Under the pieces are notes generated by a model. That model worked only from the letters and a program-made list of their open reading frames with translations, ran no database searches and was not told the DNA's origin. A program made the position numbers and the translations under genes. From Kangiella geojedonensis (GTDB lineage Bacteria; Pseudomonadota; Gammaproteobacteria; Enterobacterales; Kangiellaceae), in contig NZ_CP010975.1 of the NCBI RefSeq assembly GCF_000981765.1, positions 1,488,001 to 1,552,000 of the forward strand: a stretch of 64,000 nt of DNA. Direction: 5' to 3'. Of the stretch, positions 12,392 through 26,388 are shown piece by piece. Each line of letters starts with the position of its first letter. The first letter of the stretch is position 1.

Positions 12392-12634
12392 TTAAGGTTG
12401 TAACTCTTCTATTAATTCAGACAGCAGTTCAATATCGCGGTCACTTAACCCATCTGACTCCACCGCATCCTCAACAAATAGCGCAAATTCAGCAAACCAT
12501 TGCTCATCGGTTAAATCATCTACTGGAATTAAGTCCACCATCGGGATTAAATACCCGACTAAAAATAACTTCTCTTCTTCAACGGTTTGTTCTAGCTCTA
12601 ATAGCTGTTGCTTAATTTGTTCTGCAATCGGCAT
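12392..12634 (-). CDS. yfcL: YfcL-family small protein
   Basis: An 80-residue acidic protein without signal or membrane segments. EEKLFLVGYLIPMVDLIPV and the C-terminal GLSDRDIELLSELIEEL parallel E. coli YfcL, which is also encoded near aroC. Its function is unknown. It lies upstream of aroA and aroC and is likely in the same transcript, downstream of trpA. Confidence 0.65.
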   Translation of the reverse strand: MPIAEQIKQQLLELEQTVEEEKLFLVGYLIPMVDLIPVDDLTDEQWFAEFALFVEDAVESDGLSDRDIELLSELIEELQP

Positions 12635-12672: not shown

Positions 12673-13494
12673 CTAAGCCGTATCAGCATGATTCGTGTGT
12701 GCAGCTTGAGCGATTGAGCGCACATAGTCGCCAATCCGTTCCAGCATTATTTGAGGGTTATTATAGTGTTGATTGATTAAGTTAACTATGGCTGAGCCCG
12801 TAATAATTCCATCAACGCCAGCATTTGCAGCATCAAAGACATGCTTTGGCTCTGAAATACCAAATCCCTGCACCAAGGGAGGGCTGTTGAACTCTCTCAG
12901 CTTACCTAAAAAGTCCGTTTTAGCTTTAGTTGCCGCGACTTCTGTGCCAGTAATGCCCTTTCGACTTAACACATAAGTGTAACCTTTACTGTTATCAGCA
13001 ATCTGGCGCAACGTCTCGTCACTGGCATCAGGCGGCGCAATAAATACCAACTGCAAACTACAGTCCTCAGCTGTTTGAGCGAATAACTGTGACTCTTTTA
13101 CTGGGCAGTCAGCAACCAGCACCGAATCGATACCTACTTTGTGGCACTTATTAAAAAAGGTTTCAACGCCCTGAGCAAAGACCAAATTAGCATAAGTCAG
13201 TAGACCAATCGGTAGGTCAGGATATTTTGCTCGTACTTTACCAATCAGGTTTAGCCCTGCTTCAATCGAAAAGTTATTTGCTAAAGGCCTTAACGCAGCC
13301 TGCTGGATAACGGGACCATCCGCCACAGGGTCAGAAAAAGCTAAGCCCAACTCAAGGCCGTCTGCACCGTTCTCAACTAATTGATCAATAATGTGTAATG
13401 ACAATTCTTCATTCGGGTCACCAACGATCACAAAAGGAATGTAAGCTAAATGATTGTTAGCTGAGCTCTTGTCGAACATAGTTTGATAACGCAT
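12673..13494 (-). CDS. trpA: Tryptophan synthase alpha subunit
   Basis: This subunit cleaves indole-3-glycerol phosphate to indole, which is channelled to TrpB. I choose ATG 13494 (MRYQTMF, 273 residues) because GGGAG is 5 nt upstream; an in-frame ATG at 13506 is also possible. The catalytic Glu of LELG and Asp of VADGP are present, as is QGFGIS. The last gene of the trp operon, it begins within a few bases of the trpB stop. Confidence 0.96.
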   Translation of the reverse strand: MRYQTMFDKSSANNHLAYIPFVIVGDPNEELSLHIIDQLVENGADGLELGLAFSDPVADGPVIQQAALRPLANNFSIEAGLNLIGKVRAKYPDLPIGLLTYANLVFAQGVETFFNKCHKVGIDSVLVADCPVKESQLFAQTAEDCSLQLVFIAPPDASDETLRQIADNSKGYTYVLSRKGITGTEVAATKAKTDFLGKLREFNSPPLVQGFGISEPKHVFDAANAGVDGIITGSAIVNLINQHYNNPQIMLERIGDYVRSIAQAAHTNHADTA

Positions 13495-13507
13495 ACTCGC
13501 TCCCATC

Positions 13508-14725
13508 CTAAATGTCTCCGTCTTTCTCTAAAATACTCATGACGTGGCTTAAGTCTTTATCACCACGACCCGATAAGTTGACTAATAACACCGTTGGTTG
13601 CTTAACCTCCTGACTCACCTTTTTTGCATAAGCAAGTGCGTGCGACGACTCCAAAGCAGGGATGATTCCTTCTGCGTGGGACAACTCCTGAAAAGCCTCT
13701 AAGGCTTCGTCATCAGTGACGCCAACGTATTCAGCACGACCACTGGTCATCAGATGTACATGTTCTGGCCCAACAGCAGGGTAATCCAATCCCGCTGAAA
13801 TTGAGTGCGACTCTATAATTTGTCCCTCATCAGTTTGCAGAGTGTGCGTTCGTGCACCATGAATAATACCTTCGGTGCCTTTGAGTAACGTCGCACCATG
13901 AGCATCTGAGTCTAAGCCATGTCCCGCAGGCTCAACACCAATAAGCTTCACATGCTCTTCTTTAATAAAATCTGCAAAGATTCCTATAGCATTAGAGCCA
14001 CCACCGACACAGGCAATGACCGCATCAGGAAGTTGTCCTGTTTGCTCCAGCATTTGTCTTTTGGCTTCCTCTCCAATCACTTGTTGAAACCTTTTCACCA
14101 TTTTCGGGAATGGATGTGGCCCAGCAGCGGTACCCAGTAAATAGTGAGTATCATCATAACTTGCAGCCCAGTCGCGTAACGCTTCATTGATAGCATCTTT
14201 TAAACTAGCGCTACCATTATCAACGGGAATCACTTCAGCGCCCATTAAGCGCATTCTAAAAACATTTGGCGCTTGGCGGTCACAATCCTTCTTGCCCATA
14301 TAAACCGTCACTTTCAAACCTAACAGTGCACACGCCAGTGCCGTCGCCACGCCGTGTTGGCCGGCACCAGTTTCAGCAATGATTCGTGTTTTACCCATAC
14401 GCTTTGCTAATAAGGCCTGCGCTAATACCTGGTTAGTTTTATGGGCGCCGCCATGGAGTAGGTCTTCACGCTTTAAAAACACACGACAGTTTTCAGTACG
14501 CCCAAAAGTTTTACATTCCGTTAGTGGCGTAGGCCTGCCCGCATAATTATTCAGTAGCGAATTAAGTTCGCTTAAAAACTCATCATCCGTGATAGCACTT
14601 TCGAAGGCATCTTCTAGCTGCTCAAGTGCTGGGACTAAAATTTGAGGAACGAACTGACCACCATATTGCCCAATATAAGCGCCATCGTATTCAAATTTAG
14701 TTGAATTAGTATCATTCAGTGACAT
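13508..14725 (-). CDS. trpB: Tryptophan synthase beta subunit
   Basis: A 405-residue PLP enzyme that condenses indole with serine. The PLP lysine is K96 in HGGAHKTNQ, and the glycine-rich phosphate loop is [10 protein letters not shown]. The N-terminus ([12 protein letters not shown]) matches the TrpB1 class that pairs with TrpA. It starts 2 bp after the trpCF stop, indicating tight translational coupling. Confidence 0.98.
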
Positions 14726-14727
14726 GT

Positions 14728-16128
14728 TTAACCTCTTTGATCATTTCTAGGCGTGTCGCCTAGATGACTTCTGCCAGACAATGCTCTGGCATTAGCAAAT
14801 AATTTTTCAATTCGTTCTTGTGACTTAACACCTGGCGAAGCTTCGGTACCACCACAGACATCAACTGCACAGATACCAAAAGACTTTAGTTGTCGAATAT
14901 TATCGGGCGTGACGCCACCGGCCACCCGAAATTTAAACTGCGGGTACTGCTTCTTTAATTCAGTAATGATCGACCAATCAAAAGGCTTTCCAGTACCACC
15001 CTTTAAACTACCAACCTGAGTATCCAGCAAAATTTCATCAACTGAATACTCAGGAATTACCGGTAGACTACCCCCTTCTCGGATAGAAATAACCTTTGAA
15101 ATAAGACAAGAGCTTGGAAGTTTTTTCCTAAGAGTCTCGACGTACTCAGTACTTTCATCGCCATGCAGTTGCACACCTGAAAGTTGATGCTGAATAACCG
15201 AATCATTAACGTCCTCAATGCTGTGGTTTTGAAAAACCCCGATAGTAGGATTGTTTGATGTGAAACCAGCTTCCACAACTCTGCGAGGCGAAGCGTCTAC
15301 GAAGATCTTACCAAGAGATGATACCGGTAATTCACTCAATATGTCGGCTGAGGGCTGGTCTTTAACACCACAAACTTTTATATCCCCATAAACCAACTGT
15401 TTCGCTGCCAACTCTAAATCATTCTGACTCATTAGACTGCTACCGACCAAACAGGCATCAGCTAATGGCGACAGCGTTAACACATCATCATGAGTAGCGA
15501 TGCCTGACTCGGTAACCACGATAGTATCGCTGGGAATGGCCGCTACCAATCGTTCAGTATGGGTAAGATCAATACTTAAGTCTTTTAAATTACGATTATT
15601 GATACCAATAATGTTTGCTTCAAGAGCCAAGGCTCGCTCAAGCTCTTCCTCATTATGAACTTCTGTCAAAATATCTAAGCTGTACTTCTCAGCTTCTTTC
15701 TGACACGCCGTATATTCTTGATCATTCAACACCGACAACATCAATAAAATTGCATCAGCACCATAAAATCGAGCTTGGCGTACTTGCTTAGGTTCCAGAA
15801 TAAAGTCTTTGCATAAAACAGGCTTGTCCGTATGCTCACTCACATATTGTAAATTAGCGTAACTACCACGGAAAAAGCGGTCTTCGGTCAATACAGAGAT
15901 AGCATCCGCATACTGGTTGTAGATCGGCACTATTTCTTCTAAATTAAAATCTTCGCGAATTAACCCCTTCGATGGCGATGCCATTTTACACTCCATAATA
16001 AAGCCGAAATGAGGCTGTTTCAGTGCATCATAAAAGCTTTTGGTGCTAGGGGATAAGCCCGACACGTCTGGGCTATTAGCAAGCGTTTCACGACGATGCT
16101 CGACAATGGCTTGCAGCACATTAACCAT
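14728..16128 (-). CDS. trpCF: Bifunctional indole-3-glycerol phosphate synthase/phosphoribosylanthranilate isomerase
   Basis: A 466-residue fusion carrying out two consecutive Trp steps. Residues about 1-250 are the IGPS barrel ([31 protein letters not shown]). Residues about 255-455 are the PRAI barrel ([13 protein letters not shown] with the catalytic cysteine, [28 protein letters not shown]). The TrpC-TrpF fusion is the enterobacterial/Vibrio arrangement, whereas pseudomonads keep separate genes. The start overlaps the end of trpD by 8 bp. The last dozen residues form a short polar tail beyond the barrel. Confidence 0.97.
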
Positions 16129-17128
16129 GTGATAGCTCCTTAATCTTGTTCAAGTGATTCAAACCTTGGCCACTTTGAATAATATGCTTTGCCTTGTCAT
16201 AACCTTCTTTAAAATCAGCAACCAAGCCATTAAGCACGAATAGCGCAGAACAATTAACCGCGACCATATCCACATGCGCCTCAGGCGCTTTGCCACTGAG
16301 CAATTGAAGGGCTGCTGTTTTGTTATCGACGCCTTCACTAACTTGTATCGCACTTAAATCGTGACGTTTAGCTGAAAAGTCCTCGGGAGAAAGCTCTAAC
16401 TTATCGATAACGCCATCATTAAGCATGACCGCTTTTGTTGGGCCGTGAACAGCAATTTCATCCAGCCCTGAACCATGAACAATCAAAGCTCTTTTTGTAC
16501 CCAGCAAGTCTAAAATTTTAGCAAAAGGTTCTAAATATTGCTCATCATACACACCGAGTAACTGAGTATCAGGCAAAGCAGGATTCGCTAACGGGCCAAT
16601 AAGGTTAAAGATGGTACGGGTCTTTAATGAACGACGGACCGGCATGACATGCTTCACGCCCTGATGGTAATCGGGAGCATATAAAAAACAAAAGTTTGCC
16701 TGGTCGAGCAGTGATTTACTCTTAGCGGCATTTAAGTCAATGGTAACGCCTAACTGTTCCATTAAATCAGCTGAGCCACATTTAGAAGACACGGAGCGAT
16801 TGCCATGCTTAACAATCTTGACACCAGCAGACGCCGCCACAATGGCCACTAATGTGGACACATTGATGGTATTTAAGCCATCTCCTCCAGTTCCACAACA
16901 ATCGCTGACCGAGTATTCGGCTGGCGGAAAGTATTGGGCTTCCTGTCTCAGTGCAGCGGCAGCTCCGGCAATCTCTTCAACCGTCTCGCCCTTTGTTTTA
17001 AGTGCCGCTAACATAGCAGCAACCACTGGCAGCTCTATATCACCCTGCAATACTTGACGGAAAGAACCGCTGGCCTGTTCGAAGTTTAGGTTCTGCCCTT
17101 GGTAGACATTCTCAAGCAAATTCAGCAT
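16121..17128 (-). CDS. trpD: Anthranilate phosphoribosyltransferase
   Basis: A 335-residue enzyme attaching phosphoribose from PRPP to anthranilate. The PRPP-binding loop CCGTGGDGLNTINVST and the downstream KHGNRSVSSKCGSADL segment are clear. It is a stand-alone TrpD, not fused to TrpG as in E. coli. It overlaps trpG by 17 bp upstream and trpCF by 8 bp downstream. Confidence 0.97.
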   Translation of the reverse strand: MLNLLENVYQGQNLNFEQASGSFRQVLQGDIELPVVAAMLAALKTKGETVEEIAGAAAALRQEAQYFPPAEYSVSDCCGTGGDGLNTINVSTLVAIVAASAGVKIVKHGNRSVSSKCGSADLMEQLGVTIDLNAAKSKSLLDQANFCFLYAPDYHQGVKHVMPVRRSLKTRTIFNLIGPLANPALPDTQLLGVYDEQYLEPFAKILDLLGTKRALIVHGSGLDEIAVHGPTKAVMLNDGVIDKLELSPEDFSAKRHDLSAIQVSEGVDNKTAALQLLSGKAPEAHVDMVAVNCSALFVLNGLVADFKEGYDKAKHIIQSGQGLNHLNKIKELSHG

Positions 17129-17726
17129 AAGACACTCCTTCTTTTTTGCTTTTTTTATTCAATGCCAATTCAATAAAGTTCTTTAGTACTTTTGTACCGT
17201 CACGAGTCATAATGCTTTCAGGGTGAAACTGTAAGCCAAATACAGGGTATTCAATATGTGAAATAGCCATAATCTCATCATCTTCAGTCACCGCATCCAC
17301 TCGTAAATCCTTGGTTAGATGGGTGGCAGCTAAAGAATGATAGCGAGCAACTGTAATTTTTGAACTTAAAACATCCAATAACCCCGACTGATACGAATAA
17401 ACATTAGCCGCTTTTCCATGCACAATATTTTTTGCTGTGCCGACTTTCCCGCCAAAGGCTTCAACGATGACTTGATGGCCCAAGCAGACGCCAAGTATCG
17501 GTTTTTCTGCCGATAGCTCTCTAACCAGTTTAATGCAGTGCCCCGCCTCTTTGGGGGAACCCGGCCCAGGCGACAGCACAATCGAATCAACGGTTTTTGT
17601 CAGCTTCTTTAATTCCTCGTAAGGAATATCATTACGACAAACAGTCACCTCGACACCTGCAAGCTCAAGTTCATACTTAAGGTTGTAGATAAAGGAATCA
17701 TAGTTATCGATCAATAACGTTTTCAT
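17112..17726 (-). CDS. trpG: Anthranilate synthase glutamine amidotransferase subunit
   Basis: A 204-residue class I glutaminase supplying ammonia to TrpE. The catalytic triad motifs are LGVCLGHQ (Cys), and FGLQFHPESI (His and Glu); SPGPGSP and YHSLA are also typical. The ATG overlaps the trpE stop in an ATGA arrangement. With trpE adjacent, its role is anthranilate synthesis, although some TrpG homologues also serve PabB. Confidence 0.96.
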   Translation of the reverse strand: MKTLLIDNYDSFIYNLKYELELAGVEVTVCRNDIPYEELKKLTKTVDSIVLSPGPGSPKEAGHCIKLVRELSAEKPILGVCLGHQVIVEAFGGKVGTAKNIVHGKAANVYSYQSGLLDVLSSKITVARYHSLAATHLTKDLRVDAVTEDDEIMAISHIEYPVFGLQFHPESIMTRDGTKVLKNFIELALNKKSKKEGVSYAEFA

Positions 17727-19288
17727 GACAATAGCTCCGAATTTGGTGGGTTATTGCGACAAGCATCAATCACAGCTTTGGCTTTATTGACCGTTTCTAA
17801 TGCTTCAAGATTTGGCTCAGAATCATGAACAATACCCGCACCGGCAGATATCTTTGCAACACCGTCACTCACTACTGCCGAACGGATTATAATGGCACTA
17901 TCAAACTCATCATTGGCATTCAGCACACAAACCGCGCCACCATAATATCCCCGCCCTTCGGATTCTTGCTCGCGGATGATTTCCATGGCTTTAATTTTAG
18001 GTGCACCCGTTAACGTCCCCATATTGGCACAAGCTCGATAAGCAACCAGTGAATCAATCTCAGGCTTCAACACCCCTTTAATCTCTGACACCATGTGTTG
18101 AACGTGAGAATATTTAACAATGCGCTTTAATTGAATAACTTCACGGCTACCAGGAACAACGACTTTTGCTAAGTCGTTACGAGCAAGGTCAACTAACATC
18201 ATATGCTCAGCAGACTCTTTCTTGTCCTCTATTAACTCGAACTCGACTCTGGAGTCATGATCATGGTTAATCTCACCGGTAAGCTCATCGATTGCACGCT
18301 TACGAGTGCCTGCAATTGGGTAAAGATAAACCTCACGCTTTTTATTGACCTTAAGAGCACTTTCTGGGCTTGCACCAAAGAGCTCTTTATCGCCAAAGTT
18401 AAGGAAATACATATAAGGGGATGGATTGGTTAAGCGTAACTTGCCGTATGCTTTATAGGCGTTCGAGCAAGATACATTGAACGTTCGAGCTAGCACCACT
18501 TGGAAAATGTCACCTTTTACGATGCGCTCCTTGGCTCGGTCAACAAATTCATAGTATTCATTATCAGAAATGTTTAAAGCTATCGAAGAGTTTTCCTGCT
18601 GTTCATCAAAACTTAAGAGTTCATTCGATTGCTGACTTACTAGAACTTCATAGATGTTTTCTAACTCAACGCCCAATCTAACAGTATTCTCAGCATTATC
18701 ACCAAAACCTTTCACCACCACTTTTGCCGACTGACTTTCACGATGTTGAATCACCAGTTGATCTGCCACATAAAAGCAATAATCTTCTTGGGATTTGCTA
18801 ATGCTGGGTAATTTCTCATACTGCTCAACCACCTCATAACTAAAAGCACCAATGAGCATAGAGGTTTCGTTATCAGCAGTATTATCCTTTAGTAAGTCCC
18901 TCAGGTATTGCAGCACCGTCACTGTCGTCGTTTCTGACAAGCGTTGCGCTTCGTTGCTTGCGGACTGCCTCTTTCCTAATACTAAGTTTAACTCTTGCCC
19001 CTTCTCATTGATGGCAAAGTTTTGACATAAGAACTCTAGCGACTTAATAGACTTCAGCAGCTCTTGACCATTTGGGTTTAAAGCTGTCATTGTTACAACA
19101 TTATCCAGCGCCTTTATCTGAAGCGCAGCAGATACCATCACAACGCTACGCTGATGTTCGTGAGTTCCAGCCTCTGCCGTTTCTAACAAAGCAGTGTGCT
19201 TTAGCTGCCCCTTGTCCGCCAATACACCATAGACCTGAAACGGGTTAAGGCTCAAAGGTAGCTTACGGGTTAACGTCTTAACTTGCAT
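17723..19288 (-). CDS. trpE: Anthranilate synthase component I
   Basis: A 521-residue protein from ATG 19288, chosen because AGGAGG lies 6 nt upstream; the frame extends further to 19315 without a better site. The chorismate-binding domain carries FQVVLARTFNV, NPSPYMYFLNF, GASPESALKV, PIAGTRKRA and GTLTGAPKIKAMEII. The N-terminal LLETAE corresponds to the LLES motif that binds feedback tryptophan. It converts chorismate to anthranilate with TrpG. Its first codons overlap the end of the DAHP synthase gene by 11 bp. Confidence 0.96.
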   Translation of the reverse strand: MQVKTLTRKLPLSLNPFQVYGVLADKGQLKHTALLETAEAGTHEHQRSVVMVSAALQIKALDNVVTMTALNPNGQELLKSIKSLEFLCQNFAINEKGQELNLVLGKRQSASNEAQRLSETTTVTVLQYLRDLLKDNTADNETSMLIGAFSYEVVEQYEKLPSISKSQEDYCFYVADQLVIQHRESQSAKVVVKGFGDNAENTVRLGVELENIYEVLVSQQSNELLSFDEQQENSSIALNISDNEYYEFVDRAKERIVKGDIFQVVLARTFNVSCSNAYKAYGKLRLTNPSPYMYFLNFGDKELFGASPESALKVNKKREVYLYPIAGTRKRAIDELTGEINHDHDSRVEFELIEDKKESAEHMMLVDLARNDLAKVVVPGSREVIQLKRIVKYSHVQHMVSEIKGVLKPEIDSLVAYRACANMGTLTGAPKIKAMEIIREQESEGRGYYGGAVCVLNANDEFDSAIIIRSAVVSDGVAKISAGAGIVHDSEPNLEALETVNKAKAVIDACRNNPPNSELLS

Positions 19289-20312
19289 CGAGTGCCTCCT
19301 GATAAGTACGACCACTCGCTTTAATAAAAGGAACCAGTTGTTGCATCAACTGCGAAAAGTCATCTGCTGATAATGCCTGGGCTGCATCAGAGACAGACTC
19401 GCGAGGATTACGGTGCGACTCAATGATCAAGCCATCAGCGCCACATGCCACCCCAGCTTTGGCCATTGGACCAACTAAGGTTCTTACTCCGGTACCGTGC
19501 GAAGGATCAACGATAACTGGCAAGTGACTTTTCTCTTTAATAAATGCCACGGCATTTAAATCTAACGTATTCCGAGTGGCTGTCTCGAAGGTTCGAATAC
19601 CGCGCTCGCAGATCATAACGTTCGGATTGCCCGTCGCCACAATGTACTCTGCAGCCAGCAGTAGCTCTTCGATAGTTGCCGATAAACCACGCTTCAGCAG
19701 TACAGGATGCTTAGTTTCACCAACCGCTTTTAGCAATGTATAGTTTTGCATATTACGTGCGCCAATTTGGAAAGCCGATGTATAACGCGCGACATCATCT
19801 AGATCGTTAACATCCATAATTTCAGTAATGGTATCCATGCCAACTTCTTTACCGACTTGCTCCATAATTTTTAAACCTTCAACGCCTAAGCCTTGAAACG
19901 AATAGGGGCTAGTTCTAGGTTTAAAAGCACCACCGCGAAGTACCGTTGCACCCGAGGCTTTAACCTGCTGAGCAGTTTCAAGCAACTGCTCATAACTCTC
20001 AATAGCGCATGGGCCAGCCATAATGGTGAATTGATCACCTCCGACAGGCGTGTTACCAACATCAATCACTGTGTCATGTGGGTAAATCTCACGACTCACC
20101 AGCTTATATTTGCTTAAGACAGGCTTTAAATGCTCAACCTGTGGGTGATTATCAAAATGGAGTGACTGTAAAATACGTTCGTCACCTAACGCCCCAATAA
20201 CGGTTCGCTCAACACCTGGCATATGTAATGGTTTTAACCCTGCTTTTTCAATCTGGGCTAAAATTTCTTGTGCATCTGCTTCTGTTGCTGTTGGTTTTAA
20301 AATAATAATCAT
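19278..20312 (-). CDS. aroF: 3-deoxy-7-phosphoheptulonate (DAHP) synthase with N-terminal regulatory-type domain
   Basis: The first structural gene of the trp operon, 344 residues from ATG 20312, with AAGGAA 7 nt upstream; the longer frame to 20360 overlaps the attenuator. Residues about 1-70 form a small ferredoxin/ACT-like domain as in Thermotoga DAHP synthase. The catalytic barrel carries [36 protein letters not shown] and VDPSHGTG. This is the AroA-I-beta/KDOPS-like class, unrelated in N-terminus to E. coli AroFGH. It commits carbon to the shikimate pathway. Its place behind two Trp attenuators suggests a Trp-responsive isozyme; aroF is used as a generic symbol. Confidence 0.93.
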
Positions 20313-20360
20313 GGTTGTTTCCTTAAGTTTAAAATCGTTAAATTCAAATTCTGTAGACAC

Positions 20361-20387
20361 AAAAAAACCCGCTCAATGGCGGGTTTT
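20361..20387 (-). terminator. Trp attenuator 2, Rho-independent terminator
   Basis: On the minus strand AAAACCCGC, loop CATTGA, GCGGGTTTT form a 9-bp stem continuing into seven T's (20367-20361). It lies 49 bp before the DAHP synthase ATG and after leader peptide 2. Its 5' arm can instead pair with the segment after the trpL2 stop codon, as expected of an attenuator. Confidence 0.9.
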
Positions 20388-20414
20388 GTCATTTCACATA
20401 GACAATATCCCGCC
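20378..20414 (-). promoter_or_regulatory. Trp attenuator 2, antiterminator segment
   Basis: GGCGGG (20414-20409) pairs with CCCGCC (20383-20378), and TTGTC (20405-20401) with GACAA (20390-20386). This sequesters the 5' arm of terminator 2. ATTGTC (20406-20401) is also complementary to GACAAT near the start of trpL2 (20472-20467), supplying the 1:2 pairing of classical attenuation. The segment begins right at the trpL2 stop codon, so a ribosome reaching the stop would mask it. Structure was paired by eye. Confidence 0.8.
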
Positions 20415-20474
20415 CTAGCAGATCCACCACCATTGATGTTGAGTCATTTCTGTTGCTAAGTTGATGATTGTCAT
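20415..20474 (-). CDS. trpL2: Second trp leader peptide, 19 residues with three tandem Trp
   Basis: The reading frame MTIINLATEMTQHQWWWIC ends in TAG and carries three consecutive TGG codons at 20432-20424. AAGG lies about 10 nt before the ATG; an internal ATG at 20447 would give a 10-residue version. Ribosome stalling at the Trp codons when charged tRNA-Trp is scarce would free the antiterminator just downstream. The name trpL2 is mine. Confidence 0.88.
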   Translation of the reverse strand: MTIINLATEMTQHQWWWIC

Positions 20475-20516
20475 GTTGCTATTACCTTGGTTAATCAATT
20501 CATTTTATTGGCGCAT

Positions 20517-20543
20517 AAAAAAAGCCCGCATAATGCGGGCTTT
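20517..20543 (-). terminator. Trp attenuator 1, Rho-independent terminator
   Basis: On the minus strand AAAGCCCGCA, loop TTA, TGCGGGCTTT form a perfect 10-bp stem followed by a run of seven T's (20523-20517). It lies between leader peptide 1 and leader peptide 2. Its 5' arm is complementary to the segment following the trpL1 stop. Confidence 0.9.
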
Positions 20544-20585
20544 ACAATTCTTTTTTCGCTTTATATCAAACGCAAAGAAGCCCGC
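20535..20585 (-). promoter_or_regulatory. Trp attenuator 1, antiterminator segment
   Basis: GCGGGCTT (20585-20578) is perfectly complementary to AAGCCCGC (20542-20535), the 5' arm of terminator 1. It starts four bases after the trpL1 stop codon, so a ribosome at the stop would cover it while one stalled at the Trp codons would leave it free. Confidence 0.8.
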
Positions 20586-20588
20586 TAC

Positions 20589-20636
20589 TTAAGTAACGTG
20601 CCACCACCAAACGTTTTTTACGTATAAAGTTTTCAT
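20589..20636 (-). CDS. trpL1: First trp leader peptide, 15 residues with three tandem Trp
   Basis: The reading frame MKTLYVKNVWWWHVT ends in TAA and has three consecutive TGG codons at 20609-20601. No clear Shine-Dalgarno is visible, and the best promoter would make the mRNA start almost at the ATG, so it may be translated as a leaderless or near-leaderless message. The terminator and antiterminator downstream are spaced as in classical trpL. The name trpL1 is mine. Confidence 0.87.
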   Translation of the reverse strand: MKTLYVKNVWWWHVT

Positions 20637-20643
20637 GTGAGCT

Positions 20644-20672
20644 AAGTTAATCCAATTCTAAATGTGGGTCAA
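20644..20672 (-). promoter_or_regulatory. Candidate sigma-70 promoter of the DAHP synthase-trp operon
   Basis: TTGACC (20672-20667) and TAACTT (20649-20644) are 17 bp apart on the minus strand, upstream of both leader peptides and just after the parA stop. The -10 is a weak match. Transcription would start within a few bases of the trpL1 ATG. No convincing TrpR operator is visible. Confidence 0.5.
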
Positions 20673-20686
20673 GTGTTTATTTGAAC

Positions 20687-21397
20687 TTATTTTTCTTTTA
20701 CAAACTTTTCAACTTGAGCTTCGGTCTTTAATCGGGTCGCGCCTTGCGATGATAGCAAACGCTCGATGCTGGAAGTTAAAGCCCAAATTTCGAGCTTTGC
20801 TGCTGGATCGTGCCACTCCGCAACGGTTAAGCCATCCGCAAAAGAATCTAAATATGCCACTCGATTGCCCAGTTTGGTTGGAAAGTCTTCTAAGTTAAGC
20901 GCTTTTTTCGCTTTAGAGACCACATCTTCAGCAGAATTAGTTCTAACTCGATAACGATTCCAGCAAATTCTGGCCTCAAGGTTTTTGTTGATCTGCTTAG
21001 CTTCTTCGATAATCTCAGCTAAATGTTTAGTAGACCAGACCTCAACTTGAGACGGTGCCATAGGAATGAGCACCAAGTCAGAAAGTAGGATAACAGCTCG
21101 GGTTAAATTCGTGATTCGAGGGTGGCCGTCGATCAAAATATAGTCGTAATCTTTAACGTTATCACGCACAAGTTTTTGTAAATGTGTGACGTTCTTTGCG
21201 ACTAAAACATCAAGGTTTTCAATAACATAATTTTCACTTCGTATTTCAAACCATGTTTTAAGGGAGCACTGAGGAACGTCCGTATCAATAATGAGAACTT
21301 TTCCTGAATCGGACAAGGTAGAAGCAATGTTAGAGCATAGAGTCGTCTTACCGGCACCACCCTTCATCTGAACAAAACTTAATACTTTTGCGCGCAT
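20687..21397 (-). CDS. Orphan ParA/MinD-like ATPase
   Basis: A 236-residue protein from ATG 21397 (an upstream in-frame TTG has no ribosome-binding site). It has the deviant Walker A KGGAGKTT at residues 12-19, the LIIDTDVPQCSLKTW A' region and a YILIDGHPR Walker B. It belongs to the ParA family that positions DNA or large complexes on membranes or nucleoids. No ParB, parS-like repeat or replication gene is nearby, so a plasmid partition role is unlikely. Its place between the trp leader and the pilus cluster gives no firm clue. Confidence 0.82.
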   Translation of the reverse strand: MRAKVLSFVQMKGGAGKTTLCSNIASTLSDSGKVLIIDTDVPQCSLKTWFEIRSENYVIENLDVLVAKNVTHLQKLVRDNVKDYDYILIDGHPRITNLTRAVILLSDLVLIPMAPSQVEVWSTKHLAEIIEEAKQINKNLEARICWNRYRVRTNSAEDVVSKAKKALNLEDFPTKLGNRVAYLDSFADGLTVAEWHDPAAKLEIWALTSSIERLLSSQGATRLKTEAQVEKFVKEK

Positions 21398-21492
21398 AAC
21401 AAACAGCCCCAAATTCCGTTATTTTGATTTAAGCATTCTACATGAGGTAGGTTATTGATTCTAGTGACTTTATCTGCAAGCACAATAAGCAT

Positions 21493-21530: not shown

Positions 21531-21950
21531 TTAGCAACTATTACCTGATTCTGGCCAACAGTTATTACCATTCCAGGTTTTTACGCCGTTCTGATTAACT
21601 GTCAAAGTACCATCAGAAGCCGGTTGAGAGCCTGTAGGTGTGGCTATTAGAGTATAGGTTGTAACTGTTGGATCACCCTGGAACCCAATAGTATAGTAAG
21701 CATCACCTCCATCGGAAGGTACTTGCGTCGGTATAACATTAGCGTCCTCAACACCATCATAGCTAAAGTTATTATTTGACTTATAACGCTCTACAGCCTG
21801 TGAAGCTGACATTAAAGTCCCCATCGCATCGGCTCGCTTAGAGCGTACTACATATTGATTGTAGGATGGGATTGCAATAGCGGCAAGAACCGCTACAACA
21901 GCAACCACAATCATGACTTCTATTAATGTAAAACCATTATTTTGTTTCAT
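21531..21950 (-). CDS. pilE: Type IV pilin-like protein (PilE family)
   Basis: A 139-residue prepilin: short leader MKQNNG cleaved before FTLIEVMIVVAVVAVLAAIA, with the Glu at mature position 5. The C-terminal pair of cysteines (CWPESGNSC) forms the D-region loop typical of PilE/minor pilins. It is the last gene of the fimT-pilV-pilW-pilX-pilY1 cluster, matching the Pseudomonas minor-pilin order. It is probably a minor or tip-associated pilin rather than the major subunit. Confidence 0.9.
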   Translation of the reverse strand: MKQNNGFTLIEVMIVVAVVAVLAAIAIPSYNQYVVRSKRADAMGTLMSASQAVERYKSNNNFSYDGVEDANVIPTQVPSDGGDAYYTIGFQGDPTVTTYTLIATPTGSQPASDGTLTVNQNGVKTWNGNNCWPESGNSC

Positions 21951-21953
21951 ATA

Positions 21954-24900
21954 TTACTCTTTTTGTTTCCATTTGATAGTTCTAGCATTTTTTCGGAAGA
22001 AATCACAGTCATCGCCACTACAAATTGTCTGAGTACCGACTAACAAAGCCGCATCCGTATCTTCAGGGAACAAGACTGTAGCACCCGGTGCAATACCGAC
22101 GTATTTAACGTTGGTGTAGCGATCTTCAATACTAGCAATATCACCGACAGCGAAACTATCTACATCGGGTTTACCATCTAACAGGCTCACACCATATAAC
22201 CTATTGACACCTGAGGTTACACCACAGCCAGGAGGTCCTGGAATATAGGTCGTAAATAAGGTGGTAAAGTCAATTGTGGTTGAGCTCGCTAGAACTTTTT
22301 CAGCGGGCTGCAGATTAAAATACCACCCTTTCTTAGTATTACCCTCTTCAAAAATATCCGAAACTGTCGCAAAACTCACATCTCCTGTATCAGGGTCTGT
22401 TGTCGTATTAGTAACATCTAATAGAGATGAAGCCTTTAGAGGATCATAGTCATCGCCTTTTTCATACTCCGAAATCTCGAAATCATAAAAGGCGTAATAA
22501 CGATCACTAGTTGCCGTTGCTTTAGGATTTGAGCGATGGCCAGAGCCTAAGTTCACAACAGCAAACGGTATGCCGTTATAGATAGCAAAAGCTACGTCAG
22601 GTTTACTATAAAAACGGTAAGGACCATCTACAGTGCCGTCATAAACATCAGCAAAAAGCTCAATTTTTGCGGCATTTGATTTCTTAGTAAAGTCAATTCT
22701 ATAAATCTTCCCACCAACATCAGCAGCGTAAATATGATCCACAGTCGAATCATTATCCAAATCAATAAATGTTAAATCGCCAGCAAAACTATTATAAATA
22801 TCACTTTCGCTTGCGATAGTGCTATAGGTAGATGAACCCTTGTAAGGAACAGAATAAATACCATCGCCTTTGATTACATTATCAGCAGGGTTGATAGCAT
22901 TAGCACGATCATCGTAATAGTCGTCGTAACCACCAGCTAGCACAAGACGCTTTTCTGTGCCGTTTATAGTATGCATATTTACTACAAACGGTTTACTCCA
23001 GCTTTGACCAAGGTTAGGAATTTCAGTACGTACTTCATCATCATAATTGAGTTCTGCTTTAGTAAACTCAAAGTCATCTGCGACAGTAAACATCATACTT
23101 GGTTTATTCACATTAGAAACGTCTAAAGCAAATACTTCGCTACCGCCTCTTCGAGAACCTACGTATAGATAATGTTTCTTTACGCCATTGTCGACTTCGG
23201 TGTGAATAGTAATGGTTCCATCAACACCATATTCACGAAAATCAGTTTCATGATCGACAATCGCATTGGTGTACCACTCTGGAACTTTTTTCATCATTTG
23301 GCGAGGGAAGAATGCCCAGCGCTCTTTACCAGTCGCGATGTCTATAGCATGAATGTAGCCTTGGTTCGTTGCCACAAACGCTGTAGCTGAGCCATCAGCA
23401 TACTCAAGAATCTCTGGTTTAGAGTGTAAGACATCACCGAAACGATTAATATCTTGCCCATCTAGCTGAGTAACCCGATGCTTAATCCACTGGTAATAAT
23501 TCTTCAGTTGTTCACTCGAAATATCAGGAACTAAAAATGTTTTATTTTCTCCGAACAAACGATCTTGGAAGTCAACTTTTAAGGCGTTTTTAGAAATATA
23601 ATCACTGATAAAATCATCAGTCAGTTGGTTAAGATTGTTTGATGTTAAGTTAGTATAAACAACCGGATCGGCGTCAACAGAAAGGTAAGGAAGTGCACCT
23701 CCTGCTTCTACTTTATTACCATCTTCCACATCACCCCAGAAACTTTTTGACTCTTCAATAAATGTACCTGTTTCCGTATTTACAGCGAGGTTACCATCTT
23801 TATCGATAATTCGCCCCTGCGACAATTGATACTTTTTGAGGTTACCAAACCAAGTTTCTTGAGTAGCCGGTTTAAACATACCCATGTAGAGGTTATTACT
23901 ATGCCGTAGGCGGTTTGATTGGCTCAAAGGAATACTAGGTGCAACAAACGATGTTGTGTCTTGAATGGCATTTAGCGACTCGTCAAAAGAGCGCACTAAA
24001 GACTCAACATTTGTTGGTTCGAAGAATAACTTTTTACCGTTAACCGTTGAAGCCGTATTCTTCAAGAAGTCTGTAGCCACTTTATCATTTAGTGCAAATG
24101 CAACGGTTGATGTCTGAACAGTCGATCCTGGGAAGTTCTTTTTAACATCATTAATAAAGTAATAAGAAGACAGCTTTTCAGTACACTGCTTACCATTATT
24201 TGTGGCGTTTTGACTACCGTCTTCTGAAGCGTCACAAGTATCTACAATTTTATCAATATCGTCATAGGTAGCCTGATCAAAAACTGTCGGCAAACCATCG
24301 GTTAGTAATACAATCGAACTGTTATAACCACAGGCACCATCAAGAATTGGCGACGGCAGAGCTGGCCCATTTTGCGTGTAAGCTCCACCAAGGTATTGAG
24401 TCGCTTGATAGTAACCTTCAGCTGTTGGAGTACCAAAGTGCGGTTGAATTTCGTCAAGTGAATCGATTAAGTGCTGACGGTGTGTTTTACCCGCGGTCGT
24501 TTTATCAAGCGGTCTAATCTCTTGAATGACTTTAGTCTGTGGTGTACGTCCGCCAGAATATGTAAGGATACCAATTTGATTATTGTCTTTAGTTTTTTCA
24601 GACGTTAAAAATTGGTATAAAGCTTCTTTAAGACGAGTAATGCGGTTGTCTTTATAAATCCAGCGATAATAAACATCTTTATAGGCGCGAGTTAAATCCC
24701 AACCTGCTAATCTGTCATTAAACTGAGTGTTATAAGGCACATAATCAGTCCAGCCTGCTCTTGTGTACGCCTGTAATGTAGCAAAGCGTGCTTTATCTTC
24801 AGCCACACCCACTAGACGGGCACGAAGGTTCTCAACCTTCTCTGTTCTACGCTGTTGCCAGTAGTTCACAAGAACTTCATCAGCGGCTGCATCACTATCT

Positions 24901-25085
24901 TTAAAGCTCATCGAGCCCGATTCATCTAATACCAATAATAGGTTAGCTGTTTTAGCTTCACCAAAGAAAATCTCGGTATCATCAGCATAAACAGTATTCG
25001 GAGCAGCTGATAAACCTAAACCTATCGCTAAAGATATTGCTATAGAACCACCAGCAACTTTTAGCTTTTTCATTAATATACTCAC
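21954..25085 (-). CDS. pilY1: PilY1-like type IV pilus tip/adhesin protein
   Basis: A 1043-residue exported protein. GTG 25085 is chosen as start because GAGGAG lies 6 nt upstream; the ATG four codons on is too far from it. After the signal peptide, a von Willebrand A-like domain carries the metal-binding DESGSMS motif. The C-terminal half (about 520-980) is the PilC/PilY1 beta-propeller with repeated GxxRWAFFPR-like strands and a calcium loop of the form DLDNDSTVDHIYAAD. PilY1 controls pilus extension and adhesion with the minor pilins. It lies 15 bp after pilX and 3 bp before the pilin gene. Confidence 0.93.
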   Translation of the reverse strand: MSILMKKLKVAGGSIAISLAIGLGLSAAPNTVYADDTEIFFGEAKTANLLLVLDESGSMSFKDSDAAADEVLVNYWQQRRTEKVENLRARLVGVAEDKARFATLQAYTRAGWTDYVPYNTQFNDRLAGWDLTRAYKDVYYRWIYKDNRITRLKEALYQFLTSEKTKDNNQIGILTYSGGRTPQTKVIQEIRPLDKTTAGKTHRQHLIDSLDEIQPHFGTPTAEGYYQATQYLGGAYTQNGPALPSPILDGACGYNSSIVLLTDGLPTVFDQATYDDIDKIVDTCDASEDGSQNATNNGKQCTEKLSSYYFINDVKKNFPGSTVQTSTVAFALNDKVATDFLKNTASTVNGKKLFFEPTNVESLVRSFDESLNAIQDTTSFVAPSIPLSQSNRLRHSNNLYMGMFKPATQETWFGNLKKYQLSQGRIIDKDGNLAVNTETGTFIEESKSFWGDVEDGNKVEAGGALPYLSVDADPVVYTNLTSNNLNQLTDDFISDYISKNALKVDFQDRLFGENKTFLVPDISSEQLKNYYQWIKHRVTQLDGQDINRFGDVLHSKPEILEYADGSATAFVATNQGYIHAIDIATGKERWAFFPRQMMKKVPEWYTNAIVDHETDFREYGVDGTITIHTEVDNGVKKHYLYVGSRRGGSEVFALDVSNVNKPSMMFTVADDFEFTKAELNYDDEVRTEIPNLGQSWSKPFVVNMHTINGTEKRLVLAGGYDDYYDDRANAINPADNVIKGDGIYSVPYKGSSTYSTIASESDIYNSFAGDLTFIDLDNDSTVDHIYAADVGGKIYRIDFTKKSNAAKIELFADVYDGTVDGPYRFYSKPDVAFAIYNGIPFAVVNLGSGHRSNPKATATSDRYYAFYDFEISEYEKGDDYDPLKASSLLDVTNTTTDPDTGDVSFATVSDIFEEGNTKKGWYFNLQPAEKVLASSTTIDFTTLFTTYIPGPPGCGVTSGVNRLYGVSLLDGKPDVDSFAVGDIASIEDRYTNVKYVGIAPGATVLFPEDTDAALLVGTQTICSGDDCDFFRKNARTIKWKQKE

Positions 25086-25100
25086 ATCAATCTCCTCGAA

Positions 25101-25646
25101 TTAACTGTTGCCGCAGGCAGAAACCAATAATGACCACTGCTCAATTTGGGTTTTAGCTTCATTAGCGTCTTCGACACCATCACGATCGGCATCGACCCAA
25201 GCTTCACCTTGATGCTGAAAAACATTGCAGCCAACACTATTTTGATTATTCATACCCGCTGAGTTGCCCACACACTTGAATGCTTTAGGACATCCACGGT
25301 AAGTAGTGTCCGTACCACCTTTTAGCACACCCGTTGCGCTATCAATGGTCGGTGTTGTGTCGCAATCCGTGGTGACGCTACCAGTATAATCAACACAGGT
25401 TTTAATTTTTAAATCTTTAGCATTCAGCGTCTGCGCTAGAATAGTTTGATCATAACGATACGTTTCTATCACACTGTTGTTAGAGCTTTGAGCTCCATGG
25501 AAAGAAACGCTTTTTTCTTGGATGTTGGATGCTTGCTTTTCAGACAAAACGCCCGAGCGCATAATCGATAGTCCAATGATGGTTAAAGTCATTAGTAACA
25601 ACAATGAAATGACCAATGAAAAACCTGACTCTTTATTCATATTCAT
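25101..25646 (-). CDS. pilX: Minor pilin PilX
   Basis: 181 residues from ATG 25646 (MNMNKESGFSLVISLLLLMTL). The frame extends upstream, but only this start gives the short prepilin leader cleaved before FSLVISLL. PilX-type minor pilins have this form and help initiate pilus assembly and present PilY1. Several cysteines in the C-terminal half suggest disulfides. The start falls one base after the pilW stop. Confidence 0.87.
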   Translation of the reverse strand: MNMNKESGFSLVISLLLLMTLTIIGLSIMRSGVLSEKQASNIQEKSVSFHGAQSSNNSVIETYRYDQTILAQTLNAKDLKIKTCVDYTGSVTTDCDTTPTIDSATGVLKGGTDTTYRGCPKAFKCVGNSAGMNNQNSVGCNVFQHQGEAWVDADRDGVEDANEAKTQIEQWSLLVSACGNS

Positions 25647-25647
25647 G

Positions 25648-26388
25648 TTAAATCCCACTCGGTCTATTGTGGATAACGACAGTCGTTTCATACTTTAAAT
25701 GAAGCTTTTTATCGTTAACGCTAATATCCTTTCCTAATAAATTAATATTACGAGAAATATTCGAATCAGATGTGTTTTTTTCCGAGGTTAGTAACAAACC
25801 AAATCGAATACTGCGGATATTGGAAACATTAGTGATATTATCAGCGGTTACATAATTAAGGCTGGAACCGTTTAGTTCACCAAACAACACTTGGAAGTCT
25901 TCTACATTGCTGATTAGTGGTTGGTCATTACAAGTTAATACGCCACCATTTACTTCATAAACATTAGTAATTGTATCTCCGGGCGTAACCGCTACTCCAT
26001 TACAGTCAGCACTGTCTATCGCAGCACCAATACATTCATTAATCGCTTGGCTACTATCACAAGACTCATAATGGATTTTTAACATATCAATTCCGGCGCC
26101 ACCCTCATAGGTTTTATAATCTGCCGGAAGAGGACTATTCATAGTGTATGTAATGGATGAGTTGTTAACCCATCCAGCTCTAGCGATATCTTCTTTCATA
26201 AAGCTTAGCGCTAATTGAGCATCACTCTGTGCACTAATAACACCTTCAGCAGTGTTATTGGTTTTTTTAGTCGATAAATAGACGGTAAAAACACCAGCAA
26301 TCAAGATTAAGCCTAATAGCATTCCAACCATCAGTTCAACTAATGTAAAACCCTTTTCTTGCTTTATCTTTGTCATAATCATAGTCAT
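25648..26388 (-). CDS. pilW: Minor pilin PilW
   Basis: A 246-residue prepilin with leader ending in QEKG before FTLVELMVGMLLGLILIAGVF, the PilW N-methylation motif. AAGG overlapping the pilV stop lies 7 nt before the first of three close ATGs. It belongs to the initiation complex of minor pilins with PilV, PilX and FimT/U. Confidence 0.9.
   Translation of the reverse strand: MTMIMTKIKQEKGFTLVELMVGMLLGLILIAGVFTVYLSTKKTNNTAEGVISAQSDAQLALSFMKEDIARAGWVNNSSITYTMNSPLPADYKTYEGGAGIDMLKIHYESCDSSQAINECIGAAIDSADCNGVAVTPGDTITNVYEVNGGVLTCNDQPLISNVEDFQVLFGELNGSSLNYVTADNITNVSNIRSIRFGLLLTSEKNTSDSNISRNINLLGKDISVNDKKLHLKYETTVVIHNRPSGI

Follow-up and report, generated by a model that had tools for sequence, protein, structure and literature searches.

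The leader of the tryptophan operon of Kangiella geojedonensis raises the question whether one operon can be preceded by two complete attenuators that read the same signal in series, and what such a pair would do. The leader was analysed within a window, the whole stretch of 64,000 nucleotides studied here, and all leader and operon features given below are on its minus strand. The first gene of the operon encodes a type I DAHP synthase with a ferredoxin-like domain (19278-20312; PF00793, PF18152). It is followed by trpE for anthranilate synthase component I (17723-19315; PF00425, PF04715; the start codon is not fixed and the gene as listed overlaps the DAHP synthase gene), trpG for the glutamine amidotransferase (17112-17726; PF00117), trpD for anthranilate phosphoribosyltransferase (16121-17128; PF00591, PF02885), a trpCF fusion (14728-16128; PF00218, PF00697), trpB (13508-14725; PF00291, PALP family, named by family and position) and trpA (12673-13506; PF00290). 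Downstream of trpA, a gene for an 80-residue protein with no Pfam match (12392-12634) precedes an EPSP synthase gene. On the other side, a ParA/MipZ-like ATPase gene (20687-21412) on the same strand ends immediately upstream of the leader, and the reading frames at 21531-26388 presumably encode a large PilY1-like protein as well as proteins resembling type IV pilins. trpE follows the DAHP synthase gene in 54 of 58 loci of the order, the remaining four stretches ending too early.

Between 20672 and 20313, direct reading of the minus strand revealed two full ribosome-mediated attenuator units upstream of the operon, in the order promoter, peptide 1, terminator 1, peptide 2 and terminator 2, with the ATG of DAHP synthase at 20312. 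The candidate sigma-70-like promoter (20644-20672) is composed of a -35 element TTGACC (20672-20667), a spacer of 17 nt and a -10 element TAACTT (20649-20644). Leader peptide 1, MKTLYVKNVWWWHVT (20589-20636), has its ATG at 20636, which is also the predicted transcription start, three TGG codons at 20609-20601 and its stop codon at 20591-20589. A putative pause or protector hairpin 1:2 (20583-20598), CGTTAC/GTAGCG, spans the HVT and stop codons. The 5' arm of the antiterminator (arm 2), GCGGGCTT (20585-20578), is perfectly complementary to AAGCCCGC within terminator 1 (20517-20543), which consists of a 10-bp hairpin (20543-20521) and a run of seven T (20523-20517). Ahead of peptide 2 lies a weakly conserved region (20475-20488) with a Shine-Dalgarno-like AAGG (20488-20485) and its spacing. 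Leader peptide 2, MTIINLATEMTQHQWWWIC (20415-20474), a small ORF also found by the detector described below, starts with an ATG at 20474 and carries three TGG codons at 20432-20424 and a stop codon at 20417-20415. The antiterminator of unit 2 (20386-20414) is formed by arm 2, GGCGGG (20414-20409), which is perfectly complementary to CCCGCC of terminator 2, and by a second helix of TTGTC (20405-20401) with GACAA (20390-20386). Terminator 2 (20361-20387) has a 9-bp hairpin (20387-20364) and a run of seven T (20367-20361). The stop codon lies 3 nt from arm 2 in unit 1 and 0 nt in unit 2. The first-pass annotation of this DNA had proposed two leader peptides, each with an antiterminator/terminator pair, three tandem TGG codons, a stop codon adjoining the arm, perfect pairing and a seven-T run. 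Every one of these elements was seen in each unit at coordinates that differ by a few bases at most, and the two units were borne out by the direct reading, by the detector and by shuffled sequences.

The detector searched for a small ORF with clustered Trp codons followed by an intrinsic terminator, with an arm 2 pairable with the 5' arm of the terminator. All unit counts come from its final form, as a narrower terminator rule missed terminators flanked by long A/T. Dinucleotide shuffling of the 20 leaders of the genus gave not even one unit in 6000 shuffled sequences. Of the real sequence of the window, 1106 stretches of 460 nt were scanned, and units were detected in only four, all overlapping the trp leader. 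A looser pattern, TGGTGG-N-GCGGG-N-CCCGC, matched the 2.5-Mb genome twice, at the two units, and the reversed control pattern matched once. An Rfam scan of the window at the gathering score and a plasmid search both gave no match. The Trp_leader family (RF00513) scored 38.1 bits for unit 1 and 27.3 bits for unit 2, both below its gathering score of 41, and 26.8-34.5 at five other places in the genome among the matches listed. It passed the gathering score in 0 of 369 genomes of the class and in 1 of 14 control genomes. Use of this profile for counting pairs was rejected; many of the weak matches listed resemble ordinary terminators, several of them lying on both strands at a single place.

The promoter ahead of unit 1 is a constant feature of the genus. 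TTGAC[CG]-17-TAnnTT was found in 20/20 leaders with 6-7 nt between the -10 element and ATG1, taking the first ATG after the -10 element and with a scoring that leans a little towards TTGA and a spacer of 17 nt. This spacing would put the start of transcription at or within 1-2 bases of ATG1, so peptide 1 is predicted to be translated from a leaderless RNA. Among 32 first or only units outside the genus, the same 6-7 nt separate a promoter of the TTGAC type from the ATG in 10 (L022, L031, L032, L034, L036, L042, L044, L048, L049 and L164), and several others are clearly without it. A stricter consensus scan detected no promoter-like site before unit 1 or between the units; since it misses the proposed promoter, its negative result between the units weighs little.

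On this anatomy, the leader very probably contains two attenuators of the E. coli type, ribosome-mediated, in series on one transcript and both reading charged tRNA-Trp, in a genome with no recognisable TrpR. The pairings and the geometry are computed, and we infer the responses from what is established for E. coli. With charged tRNA-Trp at hand, the ribosome would move past the UGG codons, reach the stop codon and cover arm 2, arm 3 would pair with arm 4 and RNA polymerase would terminate. A ribosome stalled on UGG would leave arm 2 free to pair with arm 3, and the polymerase would continue. The geometry was modelled on the assumption that the leading edge of the ribosome lies 12 nt downstream of the A site. 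With this footprint, arm 2 in both units of the window would be freed on stalling and covered at the stop codon. Across the genus, a ribosome whose A site holds the first Trp codon was predicted to leave arm 2 free in 40/40 units; once the stop codon is in the A site, it would cover arm 2 in 20/20 copies of unit 1 and 14/20 copies of unit 2. In 6/20 genus genomes the unit-2 peptide extends 18-23 nt beyond arm 2, leaving it uncovered at the stop codon, and in 7/20 a ribosome stalled at the final Trp codon of its cluster would extend into arm 2. Because the polymerase must pass both units, read-through would be the product of two fractions, and the log sensitivities of the units would add if they are independent. 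Multiplied repression and a sharper response, as proposed in the first-pass annotation, are likewise predictions. The sensitivity measure follows PMC1183508; serial or tandem attenuators are not mentioned in the portions of that paper drawn on here.

Peptide 2 of seven genus leaders (L010, L011 and L017-L021) reads through arm 2, for example as WWxWxxRAFVREF, and in six of the seven arm 2 would be uncovered at the stop codon.

The two units may work unequally. An untranslated unit 1 would terminate by default and unit 2 would read on, so that the pair would also report translation initiation. This is a tentative reading, which falls short of an even chance; it refines series attenuation and is compatible with it. 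The calculated structures point in this direction. For the stretch between the Trp codons and arm 2, the folding energy is -8.7 to -12.3 kcal/mol in unit 1, where arm 2 is paired in 20/20 leaders, and -2.5 to -7.5 kcal/mol in unit 2, where arm 2 is entirely unpaired in 5/20. Hairpin 1:2 is clear in unit 1 and weaker or absent in unit 2. The antiterminator was more stable than the terminator in 19/20 copies of unit 2 and in 5/20 copies of unit 1, and unit 1 is predicted to be leaderless, unit 2 not. However, these energies were computed for isolated stretches at 37 C, from which co-transcriptional folding may differ, and in L005-L009 the unit-2 hairpin reaches -5.0 to -7.5 kcal/mol with most of arm 2 paired.

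By analogy with rnTrpL/peTrpL of Sinorhizobium meliloti, the attenuated RNA or the peptide of unit 1 might also act in trans, which is improbable here. The layout in S. meliloti is alike, with an RNA starting at the trpL ATG according to PMC7298713, and the part of peptide 1 ahead of its Trp codons shows fair conservation (column values of 0.83-0.96 in three subgroups). This conservation, however, may be accounted for in large part by RNA structure and the Trp codons.

Column by column, the mean majority fraction was 0.57-0.67 in the spacer between the units, compared with 0.83-0.98 in the terminators and in the segments running from Trp codons to arm 2 of both units. The core was aligned in 97 units (96 with CCC and one with CTC); the detector requires pairing, so the tally leans toward pairing. 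Arm 3, arm 4 and arm 2 read CCCGC/GGGCG/GGGCG in 71 of the 97, and the G-U form of arm 2 (GGGTG) was found in 10. CCCGT together with GGGCA in arm 4 was observed in seven units, four of them with GGGCA in arm 2 also and three with only partial pairing there. One unit each had CCCGT with GGGCG (G-U) and CCCAC/GGGTG/GGGTG, and the rest showed partial pairing or CTCGC. Judged from these alignments, three-way base changes tend to preserve the pairing of both antiterminator and terminator. In hairpin 1:2 of unit 1, where the detector does not demand pairing, 120/120 cells were paired over 20 sequences, with 22-52% in slid controls. It has one two-sided change, and 24/500 shuffles matched the observed covariation, so covariation alone is modest. 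The unit-2 antiterminator of 13 genus leaders had 99.3% of cells paired, with no two-sided change and a covariation not above shuffles; in terminator 2, GC alternates with AU at one pair (8 and 5 of 13 sequences, respectively). The alignment of orthologous leaders suggested by the first-pass annotation thus gave both conserved Trp codons and compensatory changes. The related terminator cores, which it took to suggest duplication of one unit into the other, do not support that reading, as the CCCGC core was also present in 15/17 single units.

The distribution of the units was examined in the genus, the family Kangiellaceae and the order. The order was sampled by 295 genomes, of which 46 had a match at E <= 1e-80 and 43 of these a full-length one, and all 40 family genomes examined carry the DAHP synthase. 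Three carriers whose contigs end in or near the leader were left out (L037 and G031 of the family, L165 of f13). Two units were detected in 20/20 genomes of the genus, each with 2-3 tandem Trp codons (40/40 units), and arm 2, the terminator and the T-run were retained in both units in all 20. Among 18 usable genomes of other Kangiellaceae, the detector found two units in 11, one in 4 and none in 3. Similarly, among 18 usable loci of other families of the order it found two units in 9, one in 6 and none in 3. Outside the family, two units were present in 5/5 loci of f15, 3/3 of f14 and the sole usable locus of f13. Single units were found in f6, three of four f7 loci and both f25 loci, and no unit in f4, f23 and one f7 locus. 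A single unit precedes the same operon in each of Salinivibrio, Enterovibrio and Ferrimonas (L053-L055). Inspection by eye added units missed by the detector rules: two in L043 (f4), one in L160 (f7) and one each in L038 and L040 of the family. Relatives without one of the units had been named beforehand as an observation that would speak against the pair. None was found within the genus (20/20), but a second unit was undetected in 7/18 family and 9/18 other-family genomes.

These undetected second units bear on the possibility that only one unit regulates and the other is a passenger, for example a vestige being lost as in related genera. By eye, all that is left of the second unit in L022 and L048 is a peptide with one Trp, and other sequence takes its place in L038, L040 and L046. 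Against it, both units keep their tandem Trp codons, arm 2, terminator and T-run in 20/20 genus genomes and are better conserved in these segments than the spacer in the column fractions given above, which makes a passenger highly improbable. A second promoter between the units, by which most operon mRNA would carry unit 2 only and unit 1 would yield a short separate RNA, is very unlikely. Isolated weak matches occur in single genomes (e.g. TTGACA with a 19-nt spacer in L004), but the spacers of the 20 genus leaders, variable in length and sequence, have no recurring hexamer pair or promoter position. A start between the units had also been named as evidence against the pair; with no recurrent promoter there and one before unit 1 in 20/20 leaders, both units most likely lie on one transcript, as far as sequence can tell. 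On these two counts together the outcome largely favours the pair.

Other elements were observed in some relatives. In L038, L040 and L046, of family genus g4, repeated GGATGGACTGTATG-like motifs were seen by eye upstream of DAHP synthase at the expected site of unit 2. In f7 (L159-L162, L183 and L184), the single attenuator is followed by a conserved, Trp-rich uORF of 20 residues (MLTTKVKSWFIWWLQPIYAG and near copies), about 60 nt ahead of DAHP synthase or immediately before trpE, and no terminator was seen 3' of it. Over the six copies, 8 of 20 codons vary synonymously only, 5 change the residue and 7 are fixed. The pattern was found in 6/295 genomes of the order, every one from f7, and this uORF is possibly a translational attenuator or an arrest peptide. 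In f25 (L157 and L158), a second Trp-rich uORF (MKPMKLTWRWR...) comes after the single attenuator about 80 nt before DAHP synthase, and a terminator was not detected.

The series of two attenuators was compared with the occurrence of TrpR (PF01371). No match over the cut-off was found in the 40 family genomes or in the nine genomes from other families that have two units, so that none of the 40 two-unit genomes (20 of the genus, 11 of the family and 9 of other families) has one. G014 of the family gave a match of 25.1 bits, under the cut-off of 27, and two of the 40 two-unit genomes are less than 90% complete (G002 55%, G003 86%), in which absence is weak evidence. The carriers of the operon with TrpR are G068, Salinivibrio, Enterovibrio and Ferrimonas, with one unit each. 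A rule equating lack of TrpR with two attenuators was rejected. Of the 19 carriers tested in which the detector found one unit or none, 15 are also without TrpR, so absence of TrpR is not sufficient for two units, and the TrpR results cluster by family and are not independent events. In relatives that bear TrpR and have a single unit, operator-like palindromes, scored against a TrpR-operator consensus, matched 16/18 positions at -246 from DAHP synthase in L054, 14/18 at -374 in L053 and 14/18 at -230 in L035, and only 9 in L055 of Ferrimonas. By the same consensus, no two-unit leader exceeded 12/18, and the best match in the source genome, which has no PF01371 match, was 10/18. The pair would most likely serve to provide a range of regulation that elsewhere comes from the control of initiation by TrpR.

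In E. coli the trp attenuator is single and is combined with TrpR. The units described here share with E. coli trpL and RF00513 the short peptide with tandem Trp codons, the alternative hairpins 2:3 and 3:4 (with 1:2 clear in unit 1 and weak or absent in unit 2), the T-run and the GCCCGC/GCGGGC core of the Rfam consensus. They differ in being two in series, with no TrpR over the cut-off and a first peptide predicted to be leaderless. Attenuation in E. coli acts together with TrpR and is graded without it and switch-like with it, according to PMC13178558, which makes the prediction for tandem attenuators testable. PMC3641672 describes tandem attenuators in Salmonella mgtCBR, with ATP and proline as signals, as a singular example and contrasts it with metE, which has two terminator sites. 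Two translated short ORFs there share one leader and one operon, as predicted here for translation and for the single transcript, whereas the mgtCBR ORFs sense two different signals and both ORFs here carry Trp codons, with a terminator for each unit. T-box riboswitches occur before trp operons in series of two or even three, with a pseudo-cooperative response expected (PMC12452182). They are likewise serial sensors of tRNA charging upstream of trp genes, but the T-box RNA binds tRNA directly and the sensor here would be a ribosome on a leader peptide, in Gammaproteobacteria. The S. meliloti trpL RNA starts at the leader ATG, as predicted for Kangiella, in an operon without repression of initiation; in contrast to Kangiella, it has one attenuator, before trpE(G), and belongs to Alphaproteobacteria (PMC7298713). 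Salinivibrio, Enterovibrio and Ferrimonas have the same DAHP synthase-trpE order and unit anatomy; they differ in having one unit and TrpR, and two of them also have an operator-like palindrome (14 and 16 of 18 positions). A search by title and start of abstract found no tandem ribosome-mediated trp attenuator in the literature covered, the key comparative trp surveys lying outside that search. Tandem attenuators and tandem T-box trp leaders are already known, and a serial ribosome-mediated trp pair may be new.

The whole arrangement could, as a more speculative proposal with less than half of our belief, be a two-stage switch after initiation that replaces TrpR. A leaderless, default-off unit 1 and a default-on unit 2 with its own ribosome-binding site would test each transcript twice for tRNA-Trp charging, and the product would give a repressor-like range and a sharp threshold with no DNA-binding regulator. 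If so, it would be the ribosome-mediated counterpart of the tandem T-box trp leaders. The trp attenuator is the textbook single switch, and a natural pair for the same signal lets the combination of sensitivities be asked directly. It opens the questions whether two attenuators can replace TrpR and why lineages keep two units, one, or a Trp-rich uORF without a terminator.
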